This document shows, one piece after another, positions 3,547-16,853 of a stretch of DNA of 64,000 nucleotides. Made by a program: the position numbers and the translations under genes. Source of the DNA: Rhizobium tumorigenes. GTDB taxonomy: Bacteria; Pseudomonadota; Alphaproteobacteria; Rhizobiales; Rhizobiaceae. The DNA lies in the NCBI RefSeq assembly GCF_003240565.2, contig NZ_CP117256.1:620001-684000 (forward strand), read 5' to 3'. The stretch's first letter is position 1, and each line of letters starts with the position of its first letter. The notes under the pieces were generated by a model. The model saw nothing but the letters and a program-made list of their open reading frames with translations. It ran no database searches and was not told the origin of the DNA.

Positions 3547-4430
3547 CAGGCGCCCCTCTCTTCGATGCGGACGATCCGCGTGAGGTACCAGACGATGAAC
3601 ACCGCCATGATCGCGAACAGCACCGACGCGATGGCAGCACCGTAGCCGAAGCGGTATGAGAAGATGGATTGCTCGTACATTTGATAGGCGAGGACGTCGG
3701 ATGAGCCGAACGGACCGCCCTGCGTCATGACCGAGACCATGTCGAACGAACGCAAAGCCCCGACAACCGTGACGGCAATGGCTATGAAGGTGACCTGCGT
3801 CAGCTGCGGCAGCACGATGTGGCGCAGCATGTGCCACCCCCTGGCGCCGTCGATGCGACCGGCGCCGATCAATTCCTCATTGAGATTGTTGAGGCCGGCG
3901 AGATAGAGAACCATGCAGAAGGCGATCTGCGGCCAAAGCGCCGCAATGACAACGGCAAACGTCACAAGATGCTCGTTGGACAGCACAGCCGGAGCCGTGG
4001 TTCCGAATGCACTGAAGACAAGGGCCAGCAGGCCAATTTGCGGCGTGTATAACCAGGTGAAGACCACGCCCACAGCCACCGAGGCGAGCACCAGCGGAAC
4101 GAAGAACAGCGACTTCAAAAAGCGCATGCCCTTTATTTTCTGGTTGACCAGCAGCGCAATGGCCAGCCCAATCGGCGGCGCTGCCATGAACATCACCAGC
4201 CAGATGAGATTGTTCTTGAGCGACACGTAAAATTGCGGGTCGCCGACAAGTTCGACGTAATTGCCAAGGCCAACCCAGACCATCGGACTGAAGCCGTCCC
4301 AGTCGTGCAGGCTGATCCAGACGCTGTCGACGGCAGACCAGAGGATCACGACGGAGAAGAGTGCGGCGGCGGGTAAAATCAACAGAATAGGGGTCAGCCA
4401 CCAGCGATGCTGTCGCCAGAGTAGGGTCAT
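3546..4430 (-). CDS. Sugar ABC transporter permease (MalF type)
   Basis: 294-residue inner-membrane permease. First membrane segment follows a short basic N-terminus (LLWRQHRWWLTPILLILPAAALF region). The EAA loop GAGRIDGARGWHMLRHIVLP is clear, as expected for UgpA/MalF proteins. It lies 68 bases after the binding-protein gene, and its stop overlaps the ATG of the second permease by one base, so the two are probably translationally coupled. Confidence 0.93.
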   Translation of the reverse strand: MTLLWRQHRWWLTPILLILPAAALFSVVILWSAVDSVWISLHDWDGFSPMVWVGLGNYVELVGDPQFYVSLKNNLIWLVMFMAAPPIGLAIALLVNQKIKGMRFLKSLFFVPLVLASVAVGVVFTWLYTPQIGLLALVFSAFGTTAPAVLSNEHLVTFAVVIAALWPQIAFCMVLYLAGLNNLNEELIGAGRIDGARGWHMLRHIVLPQLTQVTFIAIAVTVVGALRSFDMVSVMTQGGPFGSSDVLAYQMYEQSIFSYRFGYGAAIASVLFAIMAVFIVWYLTRIVRIEERGA

Positions 4431-4453
4431 TCCAGAACCTCTTTCGTTTCGGG

Positions 4454-4483
4454 GGAGAAGCGGAACGGCTGCTCCGCTTCTCC
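4454..4483 (-). terminator. Intercistronic hairpin between binding protein and permease
   Basis: A perfect 11-bp stem (4454-4464 with 4473-4483) and 8-base loop sits between the binding-protein stop and the permease start. There is no U-run on the minus strand, so it is more likely an attenuating or mRNA-stabilising stem than a full terminator. Such a stem would leave the binding protein in excess over the membrane parts, which is common in binding-protein ABC operons. Confidence 0.6.
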
Positions 4484-4498
4484 ATCGCTGGGAGGAAA

Positions 4499-5770
4499 CT
4501 AGATCTTGTAGATGCGCTTGCGTGTGCCCTCGAGGCGTTGCAAAATCGCGTTTCGGCGCTCCGGCTTGGCCATGAACTCCTGGAACCCGACAAGTCCGGC
4601 CTGCGCCATGTCGGGGTCGCTGTCGCGGTCATAGTACTGCGAGGTCCCATGCAGGGTCTTCAGCACTTCCACGGCGGCGTTGACAAGCGGGTCCTTGCTC
4701 GGCGGCAGGTCCGTGCGCGGCGGCACGTTCCCGCCGGGCTCGAGATAAGGTCCGAGATTTTCCGGCTTGTAGAAATAGGCGAGAAAATCGCGGGCGCCCT
4801 GCTTGTTCTTAGCATTCGCAGGGATATGCACGGAATTGAGCGAAAGCTCCTCGAAACGGCCGATTTTCGGCTCAATCGTCGGGAACCGCGCGAAGGCCAG
4901 CTGTTCGAGATCTTCCTTCGGAAAGGACGAGCGCACGAAGGCACCGAGGTTCATCATGCCCGCCTTCTTCTGGGAGAGCAGGGCGCCCGCCTCCTGCCAG
5001 CCAAACGAGGTGTTGTCAGGAGTAAAGAAGCCCTGCTTGATCAGCAGTTCCCAATTGTCGAACACAGGCGCCAGGCTCGGATCGAGATAACTCATTTCGC
5101 CATTCATCAGCGCCATATGCTTGTCGAGGCCGTTAATGCGCAGATTCATCTGGTCGAACCAGCCTGCTGCCGGCCACAGTTCCTTGGTGCCGATGGCGAT
5201 GGGGGAAAGGCCTGCGCTCTTGCACTTGGCTCCGTAAGCGAGGAAGTCGTCCCAGCTTGCCGGGACAGTCAGGCCGTGCTGACTGAACACGTCCGTCCGG
5301 TAGAACATGCCCCAAAGCGTGCCGCCCGTCGGCAAGCCGTACTGTTTGCCGTCCACAGTCACGGCTCCGGCCGTGGCGCCGAGAACGTCCTTATATTTCT
5401 CCTTCTCGAACAGATCTGAAATGTCGTCGAAAAGGCCACGCTTAACGAAGGCCCGCATCCGGTTGCCGGAAAACCAGAAGCAAATGTCGGGCGCGCCGGC
5501 CACCAGGTAGCTGCGAATTGCCGTCTTGTGCGCTTCATGGTCCATATTGTTGACAACGACGTTGACACCCGCCTGCTTGCCGAAGTCGGCAGCGATCTTG
5601 CGCAGAACAGCCAAGGCTTCTGTGTTGTTCTCGTCGGCAATAATATTGATGTCCTGAGGCTGCGCGATCGCGGGCATCGGCATCCCGATAAAGGCCGCGG
5701 CCGATACCGTGCCTGCCGCTTTGAGAAAGCTACGTCGGTCCGGCCTCTTTCCAAGCTTATTGAAAGTCAT
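4499..5770 (-). CDS. Sugar ABC transporter substrate-binding protein, Tat-type signal
   Basis: 423-residue periplasmic family 1 solute-binding protein. The N-terminus has a twin-arginine motif (DRRSFLKAAG, residues about 12-21), a short hydrophobic stretch and a likely cleavage site after PAIAQP, so export is probably by Tat. The body has the family look (ADENNTEALAVLRKIAADF, SWDDFLAYGAKCKSAG, KKAGMMNLGAFV). It is the first gene of the minus-strand operon, diverging from the ROK repressor gene. Ligand is unknown; operon content suggests a galactoside or galactose-containing oligosaccharide. Confidence 0.92.
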   Translation of the reverse strand: MTFNKLGKRPDRRSFLKAAGTVSAAAFIGMPMPAIAQPQDINIIADENNTEALAVLRKIAADFGKQAGVNVVVNNMDHEAHKTAIRSYLVAGAPDICFWFSGNRMRAFVKRGLFDDISDLFEKEKYKDVLGATAGAVTVDGKQYGLPTGGTLWGMFYRTDVFSQHGLTVPASWDDFLAYGAKCKSAGLSPIAIGTKELWPAAGWFDQMNLRINGLDKHMALMNGEMSYLDPSLAPVFDNWELLIKQGFFTPDNTSFGWQEAGALLSQKKAGMMNLGAFVRSSFPKEDLEQLAFARFPTIEPKIGRFEELSLNSVHIPANAKNKQGARDFLAYFYKPENLGPYLEPGGNVPPRTDLPPSKDPLVNAAVEVLKTLHGTSQYYDRDSDPDMAQAGLVGFQEFMAKPERRNAILQRLEGTRKRIYKI

Positions 5771-6031
5771 GTAATCTCCTCCCGGTTACTGCCTTGTCCT
5801 TTCGCCAGCGGCAAACGCCTGCGCTGCCCTCCTCGGCTGCGCCTGCATCGCCTGATCGCAATACCTTTCGACTGCCGGGGCGTCGATAGACGCTTCCTAC
5901 ACCGATTTGTTGATATCTGGTCTGCTGACTGATCGCGCTTTGCGCGAGCCGGATGTTGATCGGCAGTCAAAGTTATGCATAAGATCTTGGCGCATGCAAT
6001 AATTAATTTACAAAATTAAGAAAGAGGTCGA
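5771..6031. promoter_or_regulatory. Divergent promoter region of sugar operon and ROK gene
   Basis: 261 bases between divergently read genes. The half near the ROK gene is AT-rich and holds the 10-bp palindrome TTATGCATAA at 5973-5982, a candidate operator for the ROK repressor. No promoter boxes could be assigned with confidence. Confidence 0.4.
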
Positions 6032-7234
6032 TTGAAACTCAAAGGGGACCAAGGCACTTCGCGTGCCATAAACAGACGGCTCATTCTCAATCTCCTCCGC
6101 CAGGAAGGAGCAAAGAGCCGCGCCGAGATCGCCTCCCGCACAGGCCTCAGTCCAGCCGCTGTCACTTTTGTCGTGAGCGACCTCCTCGAGGAGGGCCACG
6201 TCCTGGAGGGCAATACAGTTGCTGGTACCTCAGGCCGCCGGCCCATTCCCATTTCCATCAACTATGCCAACGGCCTGGCGATCGGTTTCAAGATTATGGT
6301 AGGTGCTGCCGAGTGCGTCATTACCGACCTCGCGACCAACCCGCTGGCCTCGATGCGACTGTCCTTCGAGGACCGCGATCCTGTCCAAATCATCAGGACG
6401 CTGGCGGATGCTGTCCCCGAACTCTTGAAGGCGGCGGCCCGACCCCAGGCAAAGCTAGCGGGCATCGGGATTTCCGTACCGGGCGTGATCGACAATGACC
6501 AGGCAATTTGCGTAAGAAGCCACCGGTTCAACTGGGACAATGTGCCACTTGCGGCGATGCTCGCTGCGGTCGTTAAAGTGCCTGTCTGGCTGGAAGACGA
6601 TACGAATGCCTACGCCATCGCACAGCAGCTTTTCGGACTTGGTCGACAGCATCGAAATATGGCGGTCCTGGCCATTGGCGTTGGGATCAGCTGCGCAATG
6701 GTCGTGGAGGGTAAGCTCTATCGAGGCGCCCACGGCGCTGCTGGAAAATTCGGGCACACCTTCATTGAGGAGGACGGCCGCCTTTGCGAATGCGGTAAGC
6801 GTGGGTGCCTGATGGCCTACTATTCCCTTCCATCGCTTTCTGCATCGCTGCGTGCCGCAAGCATCGCCGATGGGCCCTTTGACGCAGCTTGGATGCAAGG
6901 AGAACTGGCCGCTGGCAATCCGTCCGTGACGGCTTTGGTGCAGGAAGCCGGCCGCAGCATCGGCCGATGCCTTGCCAACCTGACCAATGTTACGGATCCT
7001 GAAGTCATCGTGGTCGGCGGAGAAGCCGTCGTTCTCGGCGACTTATTCCTCGGCGAAATACGTGCCGCGCTCAAGGACCATTCGTTCAGGGCTCCCCCGC
7101 CCCTGCTGCCCGACTGGGAGGACGATTCTTGGGCCCGAGGAGCAGCTGCTCTGGTGACGCAGAGATTTTTCGATTTTGAAAATACCGCCGGCACGATTGG
7201 CCAGGAGTCCAGTGCTTTCTCGTTCGCGCATTGA
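6032..7234 (+). CDS. ROK-family transcriptional repressor
   Basis: 400-residue regulator: N-terminal winged helix (residues about 10-65, NRRLILNLLRQEGAKSRAEI then GLSPAAVTFVVSDLLEEG) and a sugar-kinase-like ROK domain. The ROK zinc motif is visible near residues 239-260 (GHTFIEEDGRLCECGKRGCL, with His and three Cys). The start is TTG at 6032 with GAGG just upstream; no better ATG lies nearby. It diverges from the sugar operon, so it is probably its local repressor released by the sugar or a derivative. The ligand is not identifiable. Confidence 0.92.
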   Translation: MKLKGDQGTSRAINRRLILNLLRQEGAKSRAEIASRTGLSPAAVTFVVSDLLEEGHVLEGNTVAGTSGRRPIPISINYANGLAIGFKIMVGAAECVITDLATNPLASMRLSFEDRDPVQIIRTLADAVPELLKAAARPQAKLAGIGISVPGVIDNDQAICVRSHRFNWDNVPLAAMLAAVVKVPVWLEDDTNAYAIAQQLFGLGRQHRNMAVLAIGVGISCAMVVEGKLYRGAHGAAGKFGHTFIEEDGRLCECGKRGCLMAYYSLPSLSASLRAASIADGPFDAAWMQGELAAGNPSVTALVQEAGRSIGRCLANLTNVTDPEVIVVGGEAVVLGDLFLGEIRAALKDHSFRAPPPLLPDWEDDSWARGAAALVTQRFFDFENTAGTIGQESSAFSFAH

Positions 7235-7310
7235 ACATGGACAATGCGAGGTTCCAGGTGACAAGTTTTTGCGATAGAAAAAGCGGTAGGCCGCTGGTGC
7301 TCGTGAGCGG

Positions 7311-7404
7311 GTGTGATTAAGTGTACAGAATTGACCCCGTCAACATGAGAAATAACAGGGCCTTATAACGCGTATCGGGCATCGGGACACACAGCTGATT
7401 TACA
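7311..7404 (+). repeat. Diverged ~94-bp repeat, copy 1
   Basis: Non-coding block matching 12553-12646 in the same orientation at roughly 80% identity by eye. Shared blocks include TGTGATTAAG, GTACAGAAT, CCGTCAAC, GAGAAAT, GGCCTTATAA, GCGTATCG and TGATTTACA-like ends. It lies 76 bases after the ROK gene and 74 bases before the end of the Imm8 gene. A relic of an insertion-sequence end is the simplest reading; identity is unknown. Confidence 0.75.
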
Positions 7405-7478
7405 GATGGCCTGTTGCCGTGAAATAGCTACTGGCGAACAAACGGGGGTAGCCGGCTGCCCCTAAGCAGACCATATTG

Positions 7479-7874
7479 TCATTCATTAAAGCTAGCATAG
7501 TCCTCGAACTCCCATGCCAGCTCTCTACTCAAACGCAGCGCAAGACTGCGCCAATCGTCCCCAGTCTGAGCTGCAATGAATTGTTCGATTGTCTCACGGA
7601 TAATGTGTTCGTCGAAAGATTGCACGAACAGATGGTGTCGACCAAAAAGGGGACGTGAATGTATTTCATGGGTTTCGTGAATTGGCTTGGGACTTAAAAC
7701 GTTATCCGCAAACCATAATGGAGTGCACACGATAGCAGAAAAATTGTCTCCGCCTTCGCTGTCGAGGGGGCCGATTACAAGGTCCAACAACGCTCCAAAA
7801 TATTCAGTATGGTCTGGAGAAAACCATTCGCCGTTCATTCCCACTATATCGAAGTTCTTGAGTTCTGCTTTCAT
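7479..7874 (-). CDS. Imm8-type immunity protein (orphan)
   Basis: 131-residue cytosolic protein resembling the Imm8 family of polymorphic-toxin immunity proteins. Supporting features: start MKAELKNFDI, then LLDLVIGPLDSEGGDNFSAIVCTPLWF, later FGRHHLFVQSFDEHII and the C-terminal AWEFEDYASF. I took ATG at 7874 because the family normally begins MK.ELK; an in-frame start 21 bases upstream is possible. No cognate toxin gene is next to it: upstream on the same strand are a gap of 277 bases and a PAAR gene. It may be a self-protection orphan left after toxin loss. Confidence 0.8.
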   Translation of the reverse strand: MKAELKNFDIVGMNGEWFSPDHTEYFGALLDLVIGPLDSEGGDNFSAIVCTPLWFADNVLSPKPIHETHEIHSRPLFGRHHLFVQSFDEHIIRETIEQFIAAQTGDDWRSLALRLSRELAWEFEDYASFNE

Positions 7875-8151
7875 GCACTTCAACCGTTTTCGCAAATATT
7901 ATGATAAAACGAAGTGTTCACGTCCGCAATTGGCATGTTCTTCAGCAAATTTCGCATTGGTGACCCTCGCAATGGCCAATGGTGCTTAGTCGAATGTGCA
8001 AGGAGAACACCGCTTACCGAGTACCACGACGAACGGAATTATCATCTCAGACCCAATCCCGAAATTCCGCAGCGGTAAATCGACGACGCTTCTTTACTCA
8101 AAGGTGATCCAAAATACGCCTTGCGTCAGTTGTTCGCCGTGATCGCAAGGA

Positions 8152-8412
8152 TCAGCTTCGGGCGACCTTACGACCGTCGATATTGGCTACAGACGAACCG
8201 CCAGCGATGCCATCGGTCGTTGGCACACCTTTGCAAATACAGGTATCACCGACCGTGGCAATCGGAATGCCATCAACCGTGACATAGCTTCGCTGCGTCG
8301 AAGTCACCGGACCGCCAATGTGCGGTTTCGGTTCGGCCATCGGGCAGATGTGCATGTGACCTTTGAGAGAAACAGGTGATCCCAATGTAATTGTCCTATG
8401 CTCGTTGTGCAT
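8152..8412 (-). CDS. PAAR-domain protein (type VI spike tip)
   Basis: 86-residue protein that is almost entirely a PAAR-like repeat domain: GSPVSLKGHMHICPMAEPKP, then TVDGIPIATVGDTCICKG, ending GGSSVANIDGRKVARS. PAAR proteins form the sharp tip of the type VI secretion spike and carry effectors. No fused toxin domain is present. The gene overlaps the end of the upstream ComJ-like gene by 17 bases, so the two are in one transcript. No other type VI secretion genes are in the window. Confidence 0.85.
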   Translation of the reverse strand: MHNEHRTITLGSPVSLKGHMHICPMAEPKPHIGGPVTSTQRSYVTVDGIPIATVGDTCICKGVPTTDGIAGGSSVANIDGRKVARS

Positions 8413-8869
8413 CCCGACTTAGGACTTTGTCCGTCGTCAGCTCAGCGCCTTGCTTCAAAATCTTAAATTCGGGCTCTTCACTAGGCACGAAAATGAGCTT
8501 CAGCACAAAAGCATAGTCACCTGCTGACGCTCCCAGAAGCGCCTCGAACACCAGATTATATTTCCCTAGCGGAATTCGCACATCCTTCATGGTTCCAATC
8601 GTGCCAATTTTAAGCGGAGTAGCAGAGAGCTCAAAGGGTGTTTGCACCGCCCATGCAGCAGAACTGTCCACCTGAATAGAAACAGCTGTATCGACCCTAA
8701 TAAGGCATTGGCCATCATGATCTGGGACTCCAAAACTTACAATTCCTTGCGACCAAGCAAAGCCTTGCGCCACATGATCGTCATTCCACAACAGGCCAGG
8801 ACGCGGAAGGCCGGGAAGGTGAACCACGACCTGAGTGTGAAGAACGGTGATCGGAAATTCTGCTATCAT
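8396..8869 (-). CDS. ComJ-like nuclease inhibitor, likely immunity protein
   Basis: 157-residue protein resembling Bacillus ComJ (Nin), the inhibitor of the DNase NucA. The core pattern is present: a start with TVLHTQVVV, then LLWNDDHVAQGFAWSQGIVSF (W-[NT]-D-[DE] and G-[FY]-A with G.VSF), then TPFELSATPLKIG and VRIPLGKYNLVFEAL. In a PAAR context such a protein most likely neutralises a NucA/NucB-type nuclease effector. It starts one base after the stop of a short frame that looks like a nuclease tail, and it overlaps the PAAR gene. The assignment rests on remembered family sequence; about 25 extra residues at the C-terminus are not explained. Confidence 0.7.
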   Translation of the reverse strand: MIAEFPITVLHTQVVVHLPGLPRPGLLWNDDHVAQGFAWSQGIVSFGVPDHDGQCLIRVDTAVSIQVDSSAAWAVQTPFELSATPLKIGTIGTMKDVRIPLGKYNLVFEALLGASAGDYAFVLKLIFVPSEEPEFKILKQGAELTTDKVLSRDAQRA

Positions 8870-8870
8870 C

Positions 8871-9068
8871 TCAGGGTCCTACCGTCATTGTTACCTTGCA
8901 GCCTTCTGTAGCGCCATTCAACTGCGCACACAGTTGACCGCCAGCACTCCTATTATCACTTCTCAGTATAGTAACCCGTCTCCGAGGCGACGAAGAAATT
9001 GTCACGAAATGACATCTGGGTAACGTGCGCCGCATTATTTCATATCTATAATATAAAGCGTCAAGCAC
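8871..9068 (-). pseudogene. Possible C-terminal remnant of a NucA/NucB-like nuclease
   Basis: Short frame ending one base before the ComJ-like ATG. Its last 30 residues (SDNRSAGGQLCAQLNG and CKVTMTVGP) recall the end of NucA/NucB nucleases, where an N-S-x-GG segment is followed by a G.KV.V strand. The catalytic C-D-E-Y-P-F motif is absent, and the first half overlaps the end of the next gene in another frame. Best read as the 3' stump of a toxin whose inhibitor gene follows. Alternative: a fortuitous frame. Confidence 0.35.
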
Positions 9069-9472
9069 TTTTCGATGTTGTTAGCGCCAACGCCAAACTG
9101 TCTATAGCCAATCGACCGGACACCATAGACATCGAATTTTTCAGCGATCCGTTCCGGCATTTGCACGAAATCGTCGACGTCTGATTTTTGAACAAACTTG
9201 GAATCGAAAAGGCTCTGCAATATCGCTGGCGTCAGCCCACACCACTTTGATTCGATGGCACCGTCCAACTCTCCCTGTTCTTCGGCCCCCACAAACTCAA
9301 GCGATGCGAAGACGCCCCTGGCGAAATCATCGTCGATAAGCTTCAGCAGGCGTTCGCGTTCAGGCGGCGCTCGTATGACTTCCATTGACAACCCTCGATC
9401 TATGGCGAAGGAAAAAGTGGCCGATAGCGACATGACGACAGTGGCCACAATGAATGATATGATTTGCTTCAA
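9035..9472 (-). CDS. Small exported protein of unknown function
   Basis: 145 residues. The N-terminus is a signal peptide (KQIISFIVATVVMSLSATFSFA, cleavage probably after FA). The mature part has no motif I know; it has an acidic middle (LKLIDDDFARGVFASLEFVGAE) and three late elements (GLTPAILQSLF, FVQMPERIAEKFDV, GANNIEKCLTLYIIDMK). The start is TTG at 9472, overlapping the upstream stop as TTGA. Its position in a small-gene run next to PAAR and immunity genes suggests a periplasmic immunity or effector-accessory role, but that is only context. Confidence 0.6.
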   Translation of the reverse strand: MKQIISFIVATVVMSLSATFSFAIDRGLSMEVIRAPPERERLLKLIDDDFARGVFASLEFVGAEEQGELDGAIESKWCGLTPAILQSLFDSKFVQKSDVDDFVQMPERIAEKFDVYGVRSIGYRQFGVGANNIEKCLTLYIIDMK

Positions 9473-9681
9473 GACAGCCTCCCGCTTCGTTGGCTGGGGT
9501 AAGTCGTTAAAAAGAAACGCGTGACGACTTCCTGGCTTTCGCCGACCATATTGTAACTGCCGAACCTAGTGTCGTAAGAATGCCTACCTGCTGCGACCAT
9601 GTCCGGCGTGCTTGTTCCCGGCATGACACTTGTATGCCGCTCCAAAAATGTGAAGAGCCCGGCATCTTGTGCATCGCTCAT
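9469..9681 (-). CDS. Small unknown protein, overlapping neighbours
   Basis: 70 residues, no recognised domain, no signal peptide. It overlaps the upstream gene as ATGA (9678-9681) and the downstream gene as TTGA (9469-9472). Two tight overlaps argue that it is translated, although it could also be a fragment of a longer decayed gene. Confidence 0.5.
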   Translation of the reverse strand: MSDAQDAGLFTFLERHTSVMPGTSTPDMVAAGRHSYDTRFGSYNMVGESQEVVTRFFLTTYPSQRSGRLS

Positions 9682-9968
9682 TGGTTTCCTGTGAGCGATA
9701 CAGACGACACCAGTTTCAAATTCGAACGCTGCTCCAACGAAGAAGGTGGTGCCGGGACCTTGGGAAAGAATTCGAAAGAGGCAAGGTCGACGTGCTCGTC
9801 GCTTCCTATAACTGCGACAGTCCAGAACTCGGATGCGGCGCCGAACACTGTCGACACCTGGACAATTTCCATGCCATTCGGGTAGAAGGCCGGCATACCC
9901 TCTACCGGCAAGCGGCGGGCCCAGTAGCTTTGATTATGTTCCAGCCGCTCGATGCTAATCGTGTTCAT
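9678..9968 (-). CDS. Small unknown protein, first of an overlapping trio
   Basis: 96 residues from ATG at 9968, which has AGGGG 6 bases upstream; a TTG start 27 bases further up is less likely. Contains RLEHNQSYWARRLPVEGMPAFYP and a hydrophobic strand FWTVAVIGSDEHVDLASFEFF. No known family. It starts the run of three overlapping small genes that leads into the ComJ-like and PAAR genes. Confidence 0.5.
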   Translation of the reverse strand: MNTISIERLEHNQSYWARRLPVEGMPAFYPNGMEIVQVSTVFGAASEFWTVAVIGSDEHVDLASFEFFPKVPAPPSSLEQRSNLKLVSSVSLTGNQ

Positions 9969-10474
9969 GCGCGTGCCCCTGAGACCTCGAGGCAAAAGTT
10001 AACGCAGAACCTTGGAAGTGTCTCCAGGGCTGGGCGGAATTCACAGAAATGGTTATCCATACGATCGAACCGCTCGCGATGGGATCCAGCCGCCGATCGA
10101 CAAGGTTTGGGGATACCTGGCGGCGAACGGCATTGCTGCCAAGACCGCAACGTTGAAGGCGAAATACGCCGATTTTAACCAGATCGGCCTCAGCAAGACC
10201 GTTTCGGTGCCATTCCGCGAGGGTCCTAGAGCTGCAAATGGTCGTTAATGCGCTATTGGAGCCGGTGTTTCCGATGAGCAAGAGAATAGGGCTGCCGGGA
10301 ATTACCCTACCTCACTGGAAAGGGCTGCCGGCTCGATCAACCTCAATTGGCGCTCCATCTTTGAACCACCCTCCCTCTGGCCGCTCCCACAGGCGAATTC
10401 TGCATCCTTGTCCTTGCCTTTGTTGATCGGCACGCCACCTCGACGGATGTGCATGGAGAATAGGAAGGGTCAAA
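9969..10474. other. No supported gene
   Basis: About 500 bases with only short conflicting frames on both strands. No motif, repeat or start signal convinced me. Probably decayed sequence. Confidence 0.5.
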
Positions 10475-10849
10475 ATGGCTTTGCGATTTGGAAGTTGCAG
10501 ATGCGGTCAAGTCGGCTTTCAGGTTGACGCCGAGCCCAAATATGTCGGGATCTGCCATTGCACGGATTGTCGCCAGGAGAGCGGATCGGCGTTTACGTTC
10601 TTCGGTGTTTGGGATGCTTCGTGTTTCGAGACGACAGGATTGACCATCGACTGGGAAGGCAGAGAGTTTTGCCCAGCTTGTGGGTCGCGGCTTTTTTCGG
10701 TCGACGACAAGGAAGTGGAGATCAAACTCGGCGCACTCGACGAAGCCCCGACCACTTTGACCCCTACCTACGAACTCTGGGTCAAGCGCCGCGAGGCCTG
10801 GTTGCAACCCGTTGCCGGCGCCGAGCAATTTGAAGAGGATCGGCGTTAG
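10475..10849 (+). CDS. GFA/CENP-V family zinc protein
   Basis: 124-residue cytosolic protein of the glutathione-dependent formaldehyde-activating enzyme (GFA) fold. Zinc-binding cysteine sets are in place: GSCRCGQVGF near residue 7, GICHCTDCRQ near 27, and FCPACGSRLF near 65. Length is normal. Most single-domain members have no proven substrate, so a formaldehyde role should not be assumed. It stands alone on the plus strand. Confidence 0.9.
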   Translation: MALRFGSCRCGQVGFQVDAEPKYVGICHCTDCRQESGSAFTFFGVWDASCFETTGLTIDWEGREFCPACGSRLFSVDDKEVEIKLGALDEAPTTLTPTYELWVKRREAWLQPVAGAEQFEEDRR

Positions 10850-11035
10850 AAAATAAGCGGCAAGAAAACTTCCCGGCCTATATGATGCGCCTCATCATAG
10901 CAGCGAACGGGACTGGAAACTGCGGATTGCCGCAACCTGTCACATCTGCTCCACGCAAGCTCCTTAACTTCTTGTTAACCAGATGGGTCCAGCCTTGAGC
11001 GGATTGGATACCACTTGCGAGATATGGAGGCGGCC

Positions 11036-11272
11036 ATGCGGCTTGTTGCAATTCCCGATAAGATTATTCCCCAGGGCGGGCACACACTCATCATCATGGC
11101 GGATGGAGAGACCAAGCATGCAGTCTGCGTTCAATGTGAGACAAGCGAACTGGCGAGCGGTGACCACGACATCGGTATGATCGAGCACTTGGCGAGCATG
11201 AAGACCGAGCGAGGAGAGCGTGCCTACGACGGACGCGTTTGGATTTCAGCATCTGAGCTACGCCGACAGTAG
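11036..11272 (+). CDS. Small conserved-looking unknown protein
   Basis: 78 residues starting MRLVAIPDKIIPQGG. The ATG at 11036 is preceded by GGAGG at a 5-base spacing, the best ribosome site nearby; two in-frame starts lie just upstream. Composition is ordinary, with two cysteines in AVCVQCETSE that could bind a metal. No family recognised. Confidence 0.55.
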   Translation: MRLVAIPDKIIPQGGHTLIIMADGETKHAVCVQCETSELASGDHDIGMIEHLASMKTERGERAYDGRVWISASELRRQ

Positions 11273-11330
11273 GTCGTCGTTCCAGATGGCCAAATGCCTT
11301 TGCGAGCAATCAGCCCGCCAAAGCTTTCCT

Positions 11331-11600
11331 TCACAGACGTTCGGCGAGGTCCATGATCGCGGCGTTGTCTTGAACCTCGTGGAGACCCTCGTAGGACGCC
11401 TTCCCAAGCTTGCCACCATCGTCCATTCCCGATATGCGATCTCGGCGATGAGCGTCGGCTGGACCCAGACGATGTCTTTCCCGCGGCTTTCGAAGGCAAC
11501 GAGAGCTTTCTTCGTCTTTAAAGTATCCAGGGCTTTTCGGAGTAGGTCGCGTCGCTTTCGTTGAAGCCAGTGCCGACGTTGCCGATATACAATTCCCCTG
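11331..11600 (-). pseudogene. Relic of an ATP-dependent DNA ligase (LigD-type C-terminus)
   Basis: Three reading frames together restore the C-terminal OB domain of a LigD-type ligase. Frame one gives GELYIGNVGTGFNESDATYS, frame two ALDTLKTKKALVAFESRGKD followed by IVWVQPTLIAEIAYREWT, and frame three DDGGKLGKASYEGLHEVQDN then a TGA at 11331. At least two frameshifts separate them. The polymerase, nuclease and adenylation domains are missing. The relic begins about 30 bases after the ureohydrolase stop on the same strand. Confidence 0.8.
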
Positions 11601-11631
11601 CGGGAGAGGGCCAAATCCTGCGCTCAATTTT

Positions 11632-12543
11632 TCAACCCTGTCGAACGATGGAACCGATCGTGTTGACGACAATACGGGCAGCAGTCAGCGCTGACATGCC
11701 ATCAATGTCAGTGGGCGGATAGAGCTCGACCAGGTCGAATCCTACGATCTTTGCCCTGCTTGCGACACCTGCAATCAAATCTATCACCTGCGTATAGGTG
11801 AGGCCGCCGGGCGTGCGCGCCGCCACACCCGGCATTATGCTGGGATCGAGGCTATCGCAGTCGAGACTGACGACCACCCGCGCTTCTTCCGGAATATGCT
11901 GTAGTGCGGCTTCGACGCCACGTGTGTGAACTTCACGAGCCGTTACAAAGTGGCTGCCATAGTTGAGCGCCGCATCGATGTCGGTGATGCGAGCGCTACC
12001 AACGCTACGCAGGCCGACCTGCACCAAGCCCGCAACATGCGGCATCTCGCTCGCCCTGCGCATAGGACTGGAATATCCGTAACGTTCGCCATGAACCTCG
12101 TCGCGCCAGTCGATATGGGCATCGATCTGCAAAACCCAGATTGGGCCTTTGTCCGTGAAGCTGGCGAGAAAGGGACATGTCACAGAACAATCGCCGCCGA
12201 GCAATATCGGGACGGCATGCGATGTTGGGGCTTCACGCGTTTTCGCCTCGATACGGGCTCGGTTTCCCTCATTATCATGCATCGTGGTCTGTATGTCACC
12301 AACATCCACGCAGCATCCCGGCCCGCCGTTAAAGAGCGGGCCTCCCAGATCGAAATCCCAGTTCTCGACAAGCGTGGCATCGTCTTGGCTTGCGGAGCGA
12401 ATGGCATTAGCGGCTAAGGTATAGCCGCTGCTATCCTTGCCCGGATAGGTGCTACCGTGAACCACGCCAAACATCACTATGCGAGGAATGCGGTCGCCGT
12501 CCAAGTGGGCAGGGAAGTCAAGAAAAGAGGGAGATGTGTTCAT
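11632..12543 (-). CDS. Ureohydrolase (agmatinase/arginase family)
   Basis: 303-residue manganese hydrolase of the family that splits guanidino compounds into urea and an amine. Metal motifs: LQIDAHIDWRDE near residue 139 and VSLDCDSLDPSIMPGV near 228. The first motif reads LLGGDCS near residue 117 where most members have GGDHS, so a metal-ligand His appears replaced by Cys. Length is normal and the frame is intact. Substrate (agmatine, guanidinobutyrate or another) cannot be told from this. A diverged repeat copy lies directly upstream. Confidence 0.85.
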   Translation of the reverse strand: MNTSPSFLDFPAHLDGDRIPRIVMFGVVHGSTYPGKDSSGYTLAANAIRSASQDDATLVENWDFDLGGPLFNGGPGCCVDVGDIQTTMHDNEGNRARIEAKTREAPTSHAVPILLGGDCSVTCPFLASFTDKGPIWVLQIDAHIDWRDEVHGERYGYSSPMRRASEMPHVAGLVQVGLRSVGSARITDIDAALNYGSHFVTAREVHTRGVEAALQHIPEEARVVVSLDCDSLDPSIMPGVAARTPGGLTYTQVIDLIAGVASRAKIVGFDLVELYPPTDIDGMSALTAARIVVNTIGSIVRQG

Positions 12544-12552
12544 TTCGACTGT

Positions 12553-12646
12553 CTGTGATTAAGAGTACAGAATCGACGCCGTCAACGCGAGAAATGACAA
12601 GGCCTTATAATGCGTATCGCCATTGAGACCCCCTGTCGATTTACAA
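12553..12646 (+). repeat. Diverged ~94-bp repeat, copy 2
   Basis: Same-orientation partner of 7311-7404. It sits 10 bases upstream of the ureohydrolase start codon, so it overlaps the promoter area of that gene. The two copies bracket about 5.1 kb holding the Imm8, PAAR, ComJ-like, GFA and ureohydrolase genes. Confidence 0.75.
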
Positions 12647-12847
12647 TCTAACCAAGCCGCATATGTCAACGACCCCGGAGCCAAGCGAAACTGATCGCCA
12701 CACAAAATATGACAAGTTTACTCAAAGCCAACATATTCCTCGGCGAAATTGTCCGTTATTGCTTATCGGAGGTGAGATGTACGTGGCTATTGTACACATG
12801 ATGGTGTCGTGATATTGTCGCTTTCAGACTTGAGAGCGGAGCTGTCG

Positions 12848-13141
12848 ATGCCCCAAACGCACTACAAGATCAGTGAGGCGCGTAAGAATTTTGCCGAGGT
12901 TCTTCAGAGAGCGAACCAGGGTGAAGAGATCATCATCATGCGAGGCAATGAGGTTTATGCCCGTGTCGGTCCGGCAGAACTTTCCGGCAAGCGAACCTTC
13001 GGCCTCCTGGCGCAGCGGGGCTTTCCGGACGACTTGTTTAATGAGCATGACGCCGAGCAAGCTACAATCGACGCCGGTGACTGGAATGATGACACCGGCA
13101 TCTTTTGTGGTGCACCTGTCGATAGCGCAAAACGCTCTTGA
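12848..13141 (+). CDS. Phd/YefM-type antitoxin
   Basis: 97 residues from ATG at 12848, giving the family start MPQTHYKISEARKNFAEVLQ. The Phd fold motif continues with RANQGEEIIIMRGNEVYARV. The C-terminal half is acidic, as expected for the part that wraps the toxin. Its stop overlaps the toxin start as TTGA (13138-13141). It should repress its own promoter; the upstream region 12647-12847 is AT-rich but I could not define an operator. Confidence 0.85.
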   Translation: MPQTHYKISEARKNFAEVLQRANQGEEIIIMRGNEVYARVGPAELSGKRTFGLLAQRGFPDDLFNEHDAEQATIDAGDWNDDTGIFCGAPVDSAKRS

Positions 13142-13515
13142 AGCTCCTGCTTGACAGCCATGCCATCTATTGGTGGATGATTGGCAGTGCACGCCTATCG
13201 CCGCATGCACGTACACTGGTCGAGGACAGGAGCAACACCGTGCTTGTCAGCGCCGTCTCTTTCTATGAACTCGACAACAAGGTGCGGCTGAGGAAGCTTG
13301 ATCTCAAACCACAGGAATTGCGTGCTGCTGTCGCCGCCAGCGGATTGCAGACCCTTGCTATAAGTGACTTGCACGCCGAACTGGCGGCCGCCTTCGACTG
13401 GGAACACCGGGACCCCTGGGACCGGATCCTTGCTGCACAGACACGACTGGAGCACTGCGCCTTGGTCTCAACGGACGTGGTCTTCGATTCCGTGCTGCAG
13501 GAGAGGATCTGGTGA
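13138..13515 (+). CDS. VapC-type PIN-domain toxin
   Basis: 125-residue PIN ribonuclease. Acidic active-site residues are visible: Asp in KLLLDSHAIYWW, Glu in SAVSFYELDNKV, the pair in HRDPWDRILAAQ and Asp in LVSTDVVF. Start TTG at 13138 inside the overlap with the antitoxin stop. Such toxins cut RNA, often initiator tRNA, and are held inactive by the partner antitoxin. Intact in length and motif. Confidence 0.9.
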   Translation: MKLLLDSHAIYWWMIGSARLSPHARTLVEDRSNTVLVSAVSFYELDNKVRLRKLDLKPQELRAAVAASGLQTLAISDLHAELAAAFDWEHRDPWDRILAAQTRLEHCALVSTDVVFDSVLQERIW

Positions 13516-13525
13516 GGAGAGAGCC

Positions 13526-13770
13526 ATGAAAGTCCTTATTGAAGTGGCAGAAGCAACGGTCCGACTCGAGGAGTTGATTGAGCTGGCGATCCGCGGAGAT
13601 GAGATTGTGATCTATCGCGACAAGCGTCCAATCGCCTCATACCGATAGCTCAAAACGCCGACGCTTATGACAAATTCCTCGCTCTTGCAGCAGACGGTGG
13701 GAAAAGTGTGCCGTCCGGGACCACCTTCGACCATTTGGATCTTTATGATGAAAACGGGCTGTCGCGATGA
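13526..13770 (+). pseudogene. Frameshifted Phd-type antitoxin
   Basis: ATG at 13526 follows the VapC stop by 10 bases with a good purine-rich site. It encodes KVLIEVAEATVRLEELIELA and GDEIVIYRDKRPIA, then hits TAG at 13646. In another frame the antitoxin tail continues (LIPIAQNADAYDKFLALAAD then FDHLDLYDENGLSR) to TGA at 13768. The two parts fit a ~78-residue antitoxin broken by one frameshift. Its stop overlaps ATG at 13767, but the frame after it stops at once, so the partner toxin is gone. Confidence 0.7.
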
Positions 13771-13909
13771 GTGTCGTCGGCCGCCTTGCTTCGCCTATGA
13801 CCAGCTAAATGGACGAAACTTGTTGTACTCCAAATATTGTGGCAAGATGTCAAAATTCTGGACGCAAACGGGCCTCTCGTCCATTCAATTGAACAAAGCA
13901 GGTGAAGCT

Positions 13910-14242
13910 GTGCCGCGTCAAAGAAGCTACTCCCGAGTAACCCACCAGGCGCTCGCCATCCTCGGCAAGTTGATCCGCGTCGGCCGCGCCGGACGCGGCC
14001 TGACCGCGCAAGAACTGGCCGACCGCGCCGGTATCAGCCGCACGACCCTGTCCAGTATCGAAAGAGGCGCACCAAGCCCTGAAATCGGCATCGTCTTCGA
14101 GGTCGCCGCCCTTGTGGGCGTGCGCCTCTTTGAATACGACGAGCGCACACTCCAGATCCACCATACCCGCCTTGACGAAAAACTGACCCTGCTGCCCAAG
14201 AGCGTCCGCCATAGCCTCAAAGAGGCAGATGATGATTTCTAA
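13910..14242 (+). CDS. HipB-type XRE regulator/antitoxin
   Basis: 110 residues from GTG at 13910 (AGGTGAA just upstream). The helix-turn-helix is clear: LTAQELADRAGISRTTLSSI then ERGAPSPEIGIVFEVA. The frame extends upstream but the earlier residues look non-coding. It overlaps the hipA start by 14 bases. By family it binds operators in its own promoter and restrains the HipA kinase. Confidence 0.85.
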   Translation: MPRQRSYSRVTHQALAILGKLIRVGRAGRGLTAQELADRAGISRTTLSSIERGAPSPEIGIVFEVAALVGVRLFEYDERTLQIHHTRLDEKLTLLPKSVRHSLKEADDDF

Positions 14243-15548
14243 GGCGGAGGCTACGCAGGCTTTTGTCTGGGTATGGCTGCCGCGGGCAGCTGAACCGGTA
14301 GTGGCCGGCCGCCTCGATAAGGATGGCGAGCGCCTGCTGTTCACCTACGGCGCCAGTTACCGCCGTCGTGACAATGCCATTTCCATCTATGATCAGGAGC
14401 TGCCGCTCAAGGAAGGCATCATTGCGCCCATAAATGGTCTGCAGATGGCAAGTTGCGTTCGCGACGGCTCGCCCGATGCGTGGGGCCGGCGGGTCATCAT
14501 AAACAGGCTGACGGGCAAGAGGCCCGACGCTGCCGGCGTACCCGAGATCGGCGAGCTGACCTTCCTGCTTCACTCAGGCTCCGACCGGATTGGCGCCCTC
14601 GACTTTCAGGTATCGGCCACAGAGTATGTCCCGCGCCTTGCCGCGCAAGCCTCCCTTGACGAACTCATGGAAGCTGCCGCCCTTATCGAAAAGGGGATGC
14701 CGTTGACTCCAGCGCTCGACCAGGCTCTCAATCACGGCACCTCCATCGGCGGCGCGCGCCCGAAAGCGCTCATCGAAGCCGGCACCAGGAAATTCATCGC
14801 AAAATTTTCGGCGACCAACGACACCTACAGCGTCGTCAAGGCCGAGTTCATCGCGATGAAGTTGGCAGGTGCTTGCGGTCTGAATGCAGCCCCGGTGTCG
14901 ATGACCAGTGCAGCGCATAAGGACGTCCTGCTTGTCGAGCGCTTCGACCGCACCCGGACAGACAATGGCTGGATGCGGCACGCCATGATCTCGGCCCTGA
15001 CCATGCTGGGCCTTGATGAGATGATGGCCCGCTACGCCTCTTACGAGGCTCTCGCCGAACTCATCCGGCACCGCTTCACCAATCCGAAGGGTACGCTCAA
15101 GGAACTCTACGGACGAATATGCTTCAACGTGCTGTGCGGCAACACCGACGACCATGCTCGGAATCATGCCGCTTTCTGGGACGGCAGAATGCTCACCCTG
15201 ACACCTGCCTACGACATCTGCCCGCAAGGCCGTACCGGCAACGAAGCCACGCAAGCCATGCTCATAAAGGGCGAGGCGCGCGCCAGCACACTCGCCACCT
15301 GCCTCGCCGCCGCAGGCGACTATCACCTAAAAGAGGCCGAAGCCGCTTTGCTGATTGAAGGTCAGCTCCACGTCATCGCCGCACGCTGGCAAGAGGTCTG
15401 CGACCAAGCGGAACTCAGTGCCGTCGACCGCAAGCTGTTTGCCGGACGTCAGTTCCTAAACAACTACGCTCTTCAAGGGCTCGAAGGCCACAAGGCGCTG
15501 CAGGATGCATACGGCGCCGCACGGGAGACGCTGATCGCCAACCAGTGA
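14229..15548 (+). CDS. hipA: HipA-type serine/threonine kinase toxin
   Basis: 439-residue kinase. N-terminal HipA subdomain (VVAGRLDKDGERLLFTYGAS), glycine-rich segment GTSIGGARPKALIEAG near 170-183, catalytic NTDDHARNHAAFW near 303-315 and metal-binding YDICPQG near 329. HipA of E. coli phosphorylates glutamyl-tRNA synthetase and causes dormancy; the target here is inferred only from family. Length is normal and all motifs are in place. ATG at 14229 or the next ATG at 14232 could be used. Confidence 0.9.
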   Translation: MMISKAEATQAFVWVWLPRAAEPVVAGRLDKDGERLLFTYGASYRRRDNAISIYDQELPLKEGIIAPINGLQMASCVRDGSPDAWGRRVIINRLTGKRPDAAGVPEIGELTFLLHSGSDRIGALDFQVSATEYVPRLAAQASLDELMEAAALIEKGMPLTPALDQALNHGTSIGGARPKALIEAGTRKFIAKFSATNDTYSVVKAEFIAMKLAGACGLNAAPVSMTSAAHKDVLLVERFDRTRTDNGWMRHAMISALTMLGLDEMMARYASYEALAELIRHRFTNPKGTLKELYGRICFNVLCGNTDDHARNHAAFWDGRMLTLTPAYDICPQGRTGNEATQAMLIKGEARASTLATCLAAAGDYHLKEAEAALLIEGQLHVIAARWQEVCDQAELSAVDRKLFAGRQFLNNYALQGLEGHKALQDAYGAARETLIANQ

Positions 15549-15599
15549 GCTGGGACGGGCGCGCACAGGCTCCCTGACCGCGCCTTGTAGGAAGAGACC
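15549..15599. other. Short spacer after hipA
   Basis: Nothing recognised between the hipA stop and the remnant of the PAAR gene that runs in from the right. Confidence 0.3.
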
Positions 15600-15937
15600 G
15601 CGGCGTAGCCAGTCGCGCTTCAGGTTCCCGCAGGAGCGTGCCTGATCGGGGTTCGGCACATCGACGAGCAGCTCTTGACGAAGGCTGCCATTCGCGGCGT
15701 TGCCCTTCCGACGCCATGGAACAGTGGAGTAGAACACGGTGGCCGAACCGGCCTCCAGCTCACCTCCATCTGCAGGCTCCGGGCAACTGGGGCAGCCATG
15801 CAGCACGTCAGCGTCACCGACACGTATCAATAAGCGGCCGTTGACGAAAAAATCGAGGCTGCCGCCAATTGCTGGCATCGTCGGGAATGGTAGGAATGGG
15901 CCGAACCGATGTCAGCCTTGCGATGGGCTTGTGACAT
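15600..15937 (-). pseudogene. Frameshifted PAAR-domain gene
   Basis: ATG at 15937 gives MSQAHRKADIGSAHSY, a typical PAAR start. After a frameshift the PAAR repeats follow: TMPAIGGSLDFFVNGRLLIR, VGDADVLHGCPSCPEP and LEAGSATVFYSTVPWRRKG, then VDVPNPDQAR. The parts are in family order and only the frame is broken. The gene continues from a decayed stretch and a lipoprotein gene to its right on the same strand. A second PAAR locus therefore existed here. Confidence 0.7.
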
Positions 15938-16232
15938 AACATGTTCCCGATTTTAACCCTACGGCATCGCGCTTCCCTGCCGTTCTTTTACCTAGACGAC
16001 ATCTTTGTGTAGCCTCCAACCGCGAACCCTTCTTCCCTTCACGTCGTGCGCGGGTCGGAAATCGGGCGGCCGGAGACGACTATGGCCTCCGTCAGATACT
16101 CTCAACCATGTGTTTGTTGCGTGGCGTGGAGGTCGGACGGGAAATCGCGGTTGTCGCCGTGGAAGAGGAGGCCTCCGGCACCGCCATTCTCTTGTGGGTG
16201 GAAAGAGCGAAACCAAAAGGTGAGTTCCATCA
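15938..16232 (-). pseudogene. Decayed frame between lipoprotein and PAAR genes
   Basis: The lipoprotein stop overlaps ATGATG at about 16235, opening MMELTFGFALSTHKR. A neighbouring frame then reads GGAGGLLFHGDNRDFPSDLH before stops. Glycine-rich FHGDNR-type segments occur in some secreted toxins, so this could be a shredded effector, but no family can be named. Confidence 0.3.
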
Positions 16233-16853
16233 TTGCGCAGCTCCAGATGCATCGCACGCAATGGCAAGCTCATAATAGCGGCAGGGATAACGGGATCGTA
16301 ACGCGCCGATCTTGATGACCGACTCGACAGAGCGGCTGTCGGCCTCCGTCACCTCCGTACCGAGAACATGGATATGCGCGGCAGACCCCACCTGGATAAC
16401 CTGGCCTGTTTTCTCGTCCATTTCCTCGCCTTCTCCTCCCGTGCCTATCTCCTTTGTCTTGAGCCTCTCCCAGGGGAAGTCCGAGCCACGTGCGGGTGCA
16501 AACCGAAAGGTGAACGTTCCTCCTTGCGGATAATCAAGTTGCACGATGCTGACTTTGTCGTGCAAAACGACGCCCAGCCGCCGGCCATTCGGCGGCAGAG
16601 GCTTCAAGGATGCGGGATAAGCGTCGCTCCGGGCAGGATTTTCCGCCTCGGGTTGCGATTGCCACTGGTCGATTGTCACCTCCTGCGGCACGATGATCAC
16701 CGTCCCGCCTTGTCCGAGAAGCGGCCACTGAAGATAGATGGTTAGATCGGACAGCATGTGCCTGTCGTCCTCTGCACTGGAGCATGACGACAGGGCGATG
16801 CCGAGGCACAGCAGAATGAGCAGATGCGCGTTTCGAAGCCAGGCACTACACAC
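16230..16853 (-). CDS. Lipoprotein of unknown function at the decayed PAAR locus
   Basis: 207 residues from GTG at 16853 (AAGGTGA upstream). Signal peptide with lipobox: LLILLCLGIALSSCSS, lipidated Cys at residue 24. The mature part contains VIIVPQEVTIDQWQSQPEAE, DKVSIVQLDYPQGG and a C-terminal ALRSRYPCRYYELAIACDAS. No family recognised. Lipoproteins coded beside PAAR effectors are often periplasmic immunity proteins; that is the likely role here by context. Confidence 0.65.
   Translation of the reverse strand: MCSAWLRNAHLLILLCLGIALSSCSSAEDDRHMLSDLTIYLQWPLLGQGGTVIIVPQEVTIDQWQSQPEAENPARSDAYPASLKPLPPNGRRLGVVLHDKVSIVQLDYPQGGTFTFRFAPARGSDFPWERLKTKEIGTGGEGEEMDEKTGQVIQVGSAAHIHVLGTEVTEADSRSVESVIKIGALRSRYPCRYYELAIACDASGAAQ

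Follow-up and report, generated by a model that had tools for sequence, protein, structure and literature searches.

A putative orphan immunity gene of the ComJ type beside the scar of a nuclease toxin in Rhizobium tumorigenes

Introduction

When a toxin gene has been lost, does the gene for its inhibitor still protect the cell, or is it only the last part of the module left unbroken? This question is raised by a locus on the minus strand of a 64,000-nucleotide stretch of DNA from the plant-associated Rhizobium tumorigenes (assembly GCF_003240565.2, contig NZ_CP117256.1, positions 620,001 to 684,000), called the window below, which sits on contig 2 of the six-contig, 5.98-Mb genome. A preliminary description had read the locus as a DNase effector module linked to the type VI secretion system (T6SS), in which the nuclease had been cut down while a ComJ-like immunity protein and a PAAR protein remained. 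We find that the locus clearly illustrates a pattern already known from bacterial warfare and is not a new system: the immunity gene is left as an orphan, and its toxin survives only as a scar. It is best explained as the decayed end of a vgrG locus in which ComJ most likely remains functional as an orphan immunity protein, a reading to which we assign a probability of roughly 0.78. The elements that carry this reading are as follows.

8396–8869, minus strand: intact ComJ-type immunity gene, 157 aa (PF11033)
8871–8966, minus strand: 3′ remnant of a NucA/NucB-type nuclease gene, approximately the last 31 codons and the stop (identity to Rhizobium paknamense, seven-nuclease profile)
8967–9034, minus strand: junction of the upstream gene and the nuclease remnant, with the break in or adjoining it (end of blastn similarity, alignment)
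8152–8385, or 8152–8412 from an upstream ATG, minus strand: PAAR relic with the PAAR motif in frame and the C-terminal ~20 residues out of frame (PF05488)

Results

An intact ComJ gene follows the end of a nuclease gene

A profile search bore out the ComJ-like character of the protein, which matched PF11033 with 42.5 bits (E 6.1e-11, cut-off 25). The frame is open over its full length, and the ComJ fold is confidently predicted for the protein, which is 77% identical to the cognate ComJ of R. paknamense.

The resemblance of the short frame upstream of ComJ (65 aa) to the end of a nuclease depended on the profile used. Pfam PF14040 did not match this frame, whereas a custom profile based on seven nucleases that are intact in relatives scored 41 bits (E 3.6e-11) against the open frame 8874–9080 of the minus strand and 39 bits against the relic in R. 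tumorigenes strain 932; the next other frame of the window had an E value of 0.47. A tblastn search of a small sequence set matched the tail to R. paknamense with 81% identity across 32 residues (E 2e-13), and 25 of the 31 tail residues are identical to the end of the R. paknamense nuclease. DNA similarity to the R. paknamense locus (L002) was continuous from 8095 to 8962 of the window (72% over 870 bp), spanning PAAR, ComJ, and the tail; blastn similarity stopped at 8962, and past ~8972 the alignment was unconvincing. Judged from these alignments, the homology of the tail, PAAR, and ComJ is far beyond chance.

Alignment with NucB (calculated offset of 32) placed D195, E196, N219, and H155 of the R. 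paknamense nuclease at Asp93, Glu94, Asn117, and His53 of BlNucB, which are described as active-site and supporting residues (PMC5758888). The tail retains the Asn aligned to N117 and is without equivalents of D93/E94 and H53, so no nuclease activity would be expected and the remnant is probably no working nuclease. Elsewhere in the genome, no NucA/NucB nuclease was found by PF14040 at E ≤ 0.001, a profile that matched all seven intact nucleases of the relatives. As an intact gene whose cognate toxin type is absent from the genome, the window ComJ is thus classed, by sequence, as an orphan immunity gene. T6SS genes are present in this genome on a different contig, which, together with the missing PF14040 match, favours the history proposed below.

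The adjoining PAAR gene is broken

The PAAR frame matched PF05488 with 51.9 bits (E 9e-14, cut-off 27), though it is not full-length: its missing C-terminal ~20 residues match in another frame at 8097–8156, a state that both R. tumorigenes records share. In strain 932, the gene is also split by an IS5 copy within its start. Thus, of the module proposed earlier, the cut-down toxin and the whole ComJ stand, but PAAR is not intact. The reported overlap between PAAR and ComJ is an effect of choosing the upstream ATG as the start, because in relatives the first PAAR codon corresponds to TTG 8385, past the ComJ stop (alignment with the intact copies of L002, L018, and L036; a further intact copy is in L035).

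A second decayed PAAR gene, of another type, lies at 15696–15940 of the same strand, downstream of a lipoprotein-like frame (~16230–16757). It is another T6SS relic, with pieces 56% and 61% identical to the PAAR upstream of the adaptor of L020.

Some related genomes carry the intact module

With the window protein as query, ComJ turned up in 10 of the 394 family genomes; by the Pfam profile, it was found in 3/148, 2/397, and 1/385 genomes of the genus, order, and class, respectively, with the genome of the window counted in each. With R. paknamense added, there were 14 distinct ComJ genomes, from which stretches of 8.5–19.5 kb were fetched (L002 from R. paknamense, L017 from G120, L018 from G149, and L020 from G335).

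In seven of the 14 (R. paknamense, G008, G120, G149, G335, G467, and G488), an intact nuclease gene stands directly before a ComJ gene, as the preliminary description would lead one to expect of homologous loci. In R. paknamense, this gene encodes a 245-aa protein that matches PF14040 (33.9 bits, cut-off 23.8) and the solved NucB structure 5OMT (E 1.6e-25). The R. paknamense locus is colinear and intact, with VgrG, DUF4123 adaptor, nuclease, ComJ, and PAAR; two additional genes and another copy of the adaptor are interspersed. Matches to both VgrG and DUF4123 were present in the fetched stretches of six of the seven intact-nuclease genomes, G008 being the exception (Pfam was run on part of them). 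A PAAR gene follows ComJ in four of the seven (L002, L018, L035, and L036), and in L017 and L020 another PAAR type lies upstream. These relatives of the window ComJ adjoin a DNA-cutting toxin, which they probably neutralise. The 14th ComJ genome is that of the window itself; there, tblastn with one query each from L018 (E ≤ 0.01) recovered neither VgrG nor the DUF4123 adaptor beside the remains of toxin and immunity or anywhere else in the window.

Loss of the nuclease is not confined to R. tumorigenes. G120 has an intact first nuclease and first ComJ; behind them come a broken second nuclease, with a stop before its end, and another ComJ whose match is interrupted by one stop. In G335, which belongs to the same genus, the second nuclease and second ComJ are intact, and a type-1 ComJ without a nuclease comes after them. 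From this arrangement, nuclease loss leaving ComJ behind happened more than once.

Three side observations concern these loci. At least two or three types of nuclease and ComJ are being exchanged among the Rhizobiaceae vgrG loci L017, L018, L020, L035, and L036. A GNAT-like gene, read by eye, lies between ComJ and PAAR in L018, L035, and L036. In L024 (~9082–9528), a ComJ-like domain is part of a 275-aa frame with neighbours that look phage-like by eye, and no nuclease was found in that stretch.

Conservation of ComJ between strains and species

Positions 4000–16000 of the window match plasmid pRt932 of strain 932 at 98.6%, and this strain carries the same truncated locus. Comparison of the two R. 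tumorigenes records showed one difference in the 474 bases of ComJ, a nonsynonymous change, and no synonymous difference. The broken PAAR differs at 0/215 and 1/52 positions in two overlapping pieces; because it is about as unchanged, the low divergence is not specific to ComJ. The corresponding counts were 2/416 for the nearby Imm8 immunity gene, 10/437 for the gene of a 145-aa protein upstream of the tail, and 4/213 and 16/318 for two small frames of 70 and 105 aa beyond it. When L017 was used as outgroup, 12 of the 156 compared ComJ residues differed specifically in the window lineage, 12 in R. paknamense, and 12 were assignable to neither. On this comparison, ComJ has not evolved visibly faster in the lineage without the toxin.

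Proposed history of the locus and alternative explanations

We propose that the ancestral order was VgrG, DUF4123 adaptor, nuclease toxin, ComJ, and PAAR, the arrangement that R. paknamense has retained. In the lineage of R. tumorigenes, the sequence before the last ~31 nuclease codons would have been lost or replaced by other DNA, now represented by the 145-aa gene and the small frames, and PAAR would have lost its frame while ComJ stayed whole. ComJ would then bind to and inhibit NucA/NucB-type DNases injected by competing Rhizobiaceae in which the pair is intact. We infer that the nuclease went by effector displacement rather than by plain deletion and that ComJ is expressed and protective.

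Several points weigh against this history. The 12/12 comparison of ComJ may mostly span the time before the truncation, and any selection on ComJ since then would not stand out from the low divergence between strains, which the broken PAAR shares about equally. Six of the 14 ComJ genomes (G126, G257, G306, G316, G372, and G730) had no match to the nuclease profile, VgrG, or DUF4123 in the fetched stretch. The extra ComJ copies of G120 and G149 are damaged, the one in G149 being broken into two frames, so orphan ComJ genes are not always kept. No toxin gene was recognisable in the segment upstream of the tail, which leaves displacement by a new effector–immunity pair a possible course only.

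The strongest alternative is that the whole module decays without selection and that ComJ is simply the last gene still unbroken. The out-of-frame PAAR, its splitting by IS5 in strain 932, the regional decay of T6SS parts indicated by the second PAAR relic, and the damaged second ComJ copies of relatives all agree with such a course, and a single nonsynonymous difference between strains has no power to reveal constraint. However, ComJ is full-length with a confidently predicted fold and is not accelerated relative to R. paknamense, and an apparently intact Imm8 gene lies nearby; we therefore regard simple decay as the less likely course, though one to be taken seriously.

A different role for ComJ, such as the control of DNA breakdown during DNA uptake as in Bacillus, appears very improbable. 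ComJ is the inhibitor of the B. subtilis competence nuclease (PMC3482391), and the six ComJ genomes with neither a nuclease nor a T6SS match in the stretch leave room for some ComJ proteins serving otherwise; against this, the genome of the window has no NucA/NucB nuclease at the threshold used, and the tail and PAAR mark its ComJ as a derivative of a T6SS-type locus. Least credible of all is that the 65-aa frame yields a functional small protein, such as one acting together with ComJ. Although the frame stays open as far as the start of ComJ in both strains, what is conserved in it corresponds by homology to the end of a longer nuclease, minus the catalytic pair, and four gap positions ahead of the tail make the two strains read different N-termini.

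The tail may be kept partly because a sequence resembling a ribosome-binding site of ComJ lies inside it. A run of AGG, GGA, or GGG was present within the codons of the final nuclease residues, 6–10 bases before the ComJ start, in nine of nine starts inspected (both R. tumorigenes records included); the conserved final Gly-Pro alone would likewise yield GG there.

Neighbouring genes and genome setting

On the minus strand, two small frames, the 145-aa gene, the nuclease tail, ComJ, the PAAR relic, and Imm8 follow one another in this order. The elements outside the module are as follows.

9469–9995, minus strand: two small overlapping frames of 105 aa (9678–9995) and 70 aa (overlaps seen in the sequence)
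9035–9472, minus strand: gene of a 145-aa protein with no family match and a signal-peptide-like N-terminus (N-terminus read by eye)
7479–7895, minus strand: apparently intact Imm8 immunity gene with no recognisable toxin adjoining it (PF15586)

The 145-aa protein had no match in Pfam or NCBIfam, and a search of 5.8 billion proteins by a method that needs shared short words returned one homologue, from R. tumorigenes; its single-sequence structure model was unusable (pLDDT 39.6). Its position suggests that it is possibly a newer immunity gene. The 105-aa frame belongs to a hypothetical family common on Rhizobium plasmids, with tblastn matches at E ≤ 0.01 in 102 plasmid records, 94 of them from Rhizobium; in one of the two regions viewed, a transposase lay just upstream.

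Imm8 matched PF15586 with 91 bits (cut-off 27) over positions 1–114 of the 114-position profile and has relatives in nine plasmid records. In Paraburkholderia and Pantoea, the two annotated records opened, it stands directly after a gene named filamentous hemagglutinin, and in the unannotated R. rhododendri record a long frame that reads by eye as filamentous-hemagglutinin-like precedes it. The gap before the window Imm8 had no convincing match to the toxin ends of L038 and L039, the two annotated records compared (best E 0.92). If ComJ and Imm8 both work, the island would cover toxins from two delivery routes.

The T6SS sheath genes and the other PAAR of the R. tumorigenes genome are on contig 4, and VgrG matches are on contigs 4 and 2. 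One of the VgrG genes (L027 1916–3303; contig 4, ~76.9–78.3 kb), close behind a PAAR gene, lacks approximately the first 155 residues relative to L018 and was read as two pieces. For R. tumorigenes, paar genes in single copy, vgrG genes in several copies, and a T6SS cluster located on chromid 1 have been described (PMC10064268).

Discussion

The nuclease and immunity families of this locus are those of the Tox-ComI/Imm-ComJ pair, in which ComI is the B. subtilis nuclease now called NucA. The preliminary description had considered the use of a competence-type inhibitor as immunity uncommon. The idea is in fact not new: in proteobacteria, the arrangement of nuclease followed by inhibitor has been in print since 2012, with the type II secretion system and T6SS among the export routes, and the same work already puts forward the idea that the origin of the Bacillus pair lies in a toxin pair of this kind (Zhang et al. 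2012, PMC3482391). What distinguishes the window from the pair described there is that the nuclease is cut to approximately its last 31 codons and PAAR is broken, while the orphan immunity gene survives. Besides that paper, none joining ComJ with effectors and immunity proteins, and no experimental test of a T6SS ComJ, was found in the open-access literature searched.

The recurrent loss of the nuclease before ComJ fits the model of effector displacement in Vibrio cholerae, where orphan immunity arrays form as the immunity gene outlasts the displaced effector (Kirchberger et al. 2017, PMC5361080). The window resembles the arrays described in that work in its kept immunity gene, in the 3′ end of the old effector shifted back, and in several immunity types side by side; it differs in its toxins and bacteria and in that no new intact effector was identified upstream. 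The loss also fits the emergence of orphan immunity genes through recombination at agrobacterial vgrG loci, reported from related bacteria with the order VgrG, adaptor, effector, and immunity, recombination within loci, and orphan immunity genes and clusters (Wu et al. 2021, PMC8546570). The main text of that study does not use the terms ComJ or NucA and calls five effector families potential nucleases.

Rhs2 of Aeromonas hydrophila AH54 is likewise a T6SS effector with a C-terminus predicted to belong to the NucA/B superfamily, although its carrier is of the Rhs type and ComJ is absent from the main text (PMC12396204). The Bacillus pair of NucA/NucB and ComJ (Nin) known from B. subtilis (structures 5OMT and 4MQD) belongs to DNA uptake and not, as here, to a T6SS locus.

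As a wider and rather doubtful extension, ComJ genes of Rhizobiaceae might pile up by repeated nuclease loss, with the last nuclease codons kept as a translation leader, and ComJ, Imm8, and the 145-aa protein might together form a small mixed shield against rivals with different delivery routes. ComJ immunity has been predicted from gene neighbourhoods, and the loci described here give concrete examples linking the competence inhibitor of Bacillus to T6SS loci. With an intact counterpart in a related species, the R. tumorigenes locus is a clear case of an immunity gene outliving its toxin, and the R. paknamense nuclease and the R. tumorigenes ComJ form a ready pair for asking whether orphan immunity still protects.
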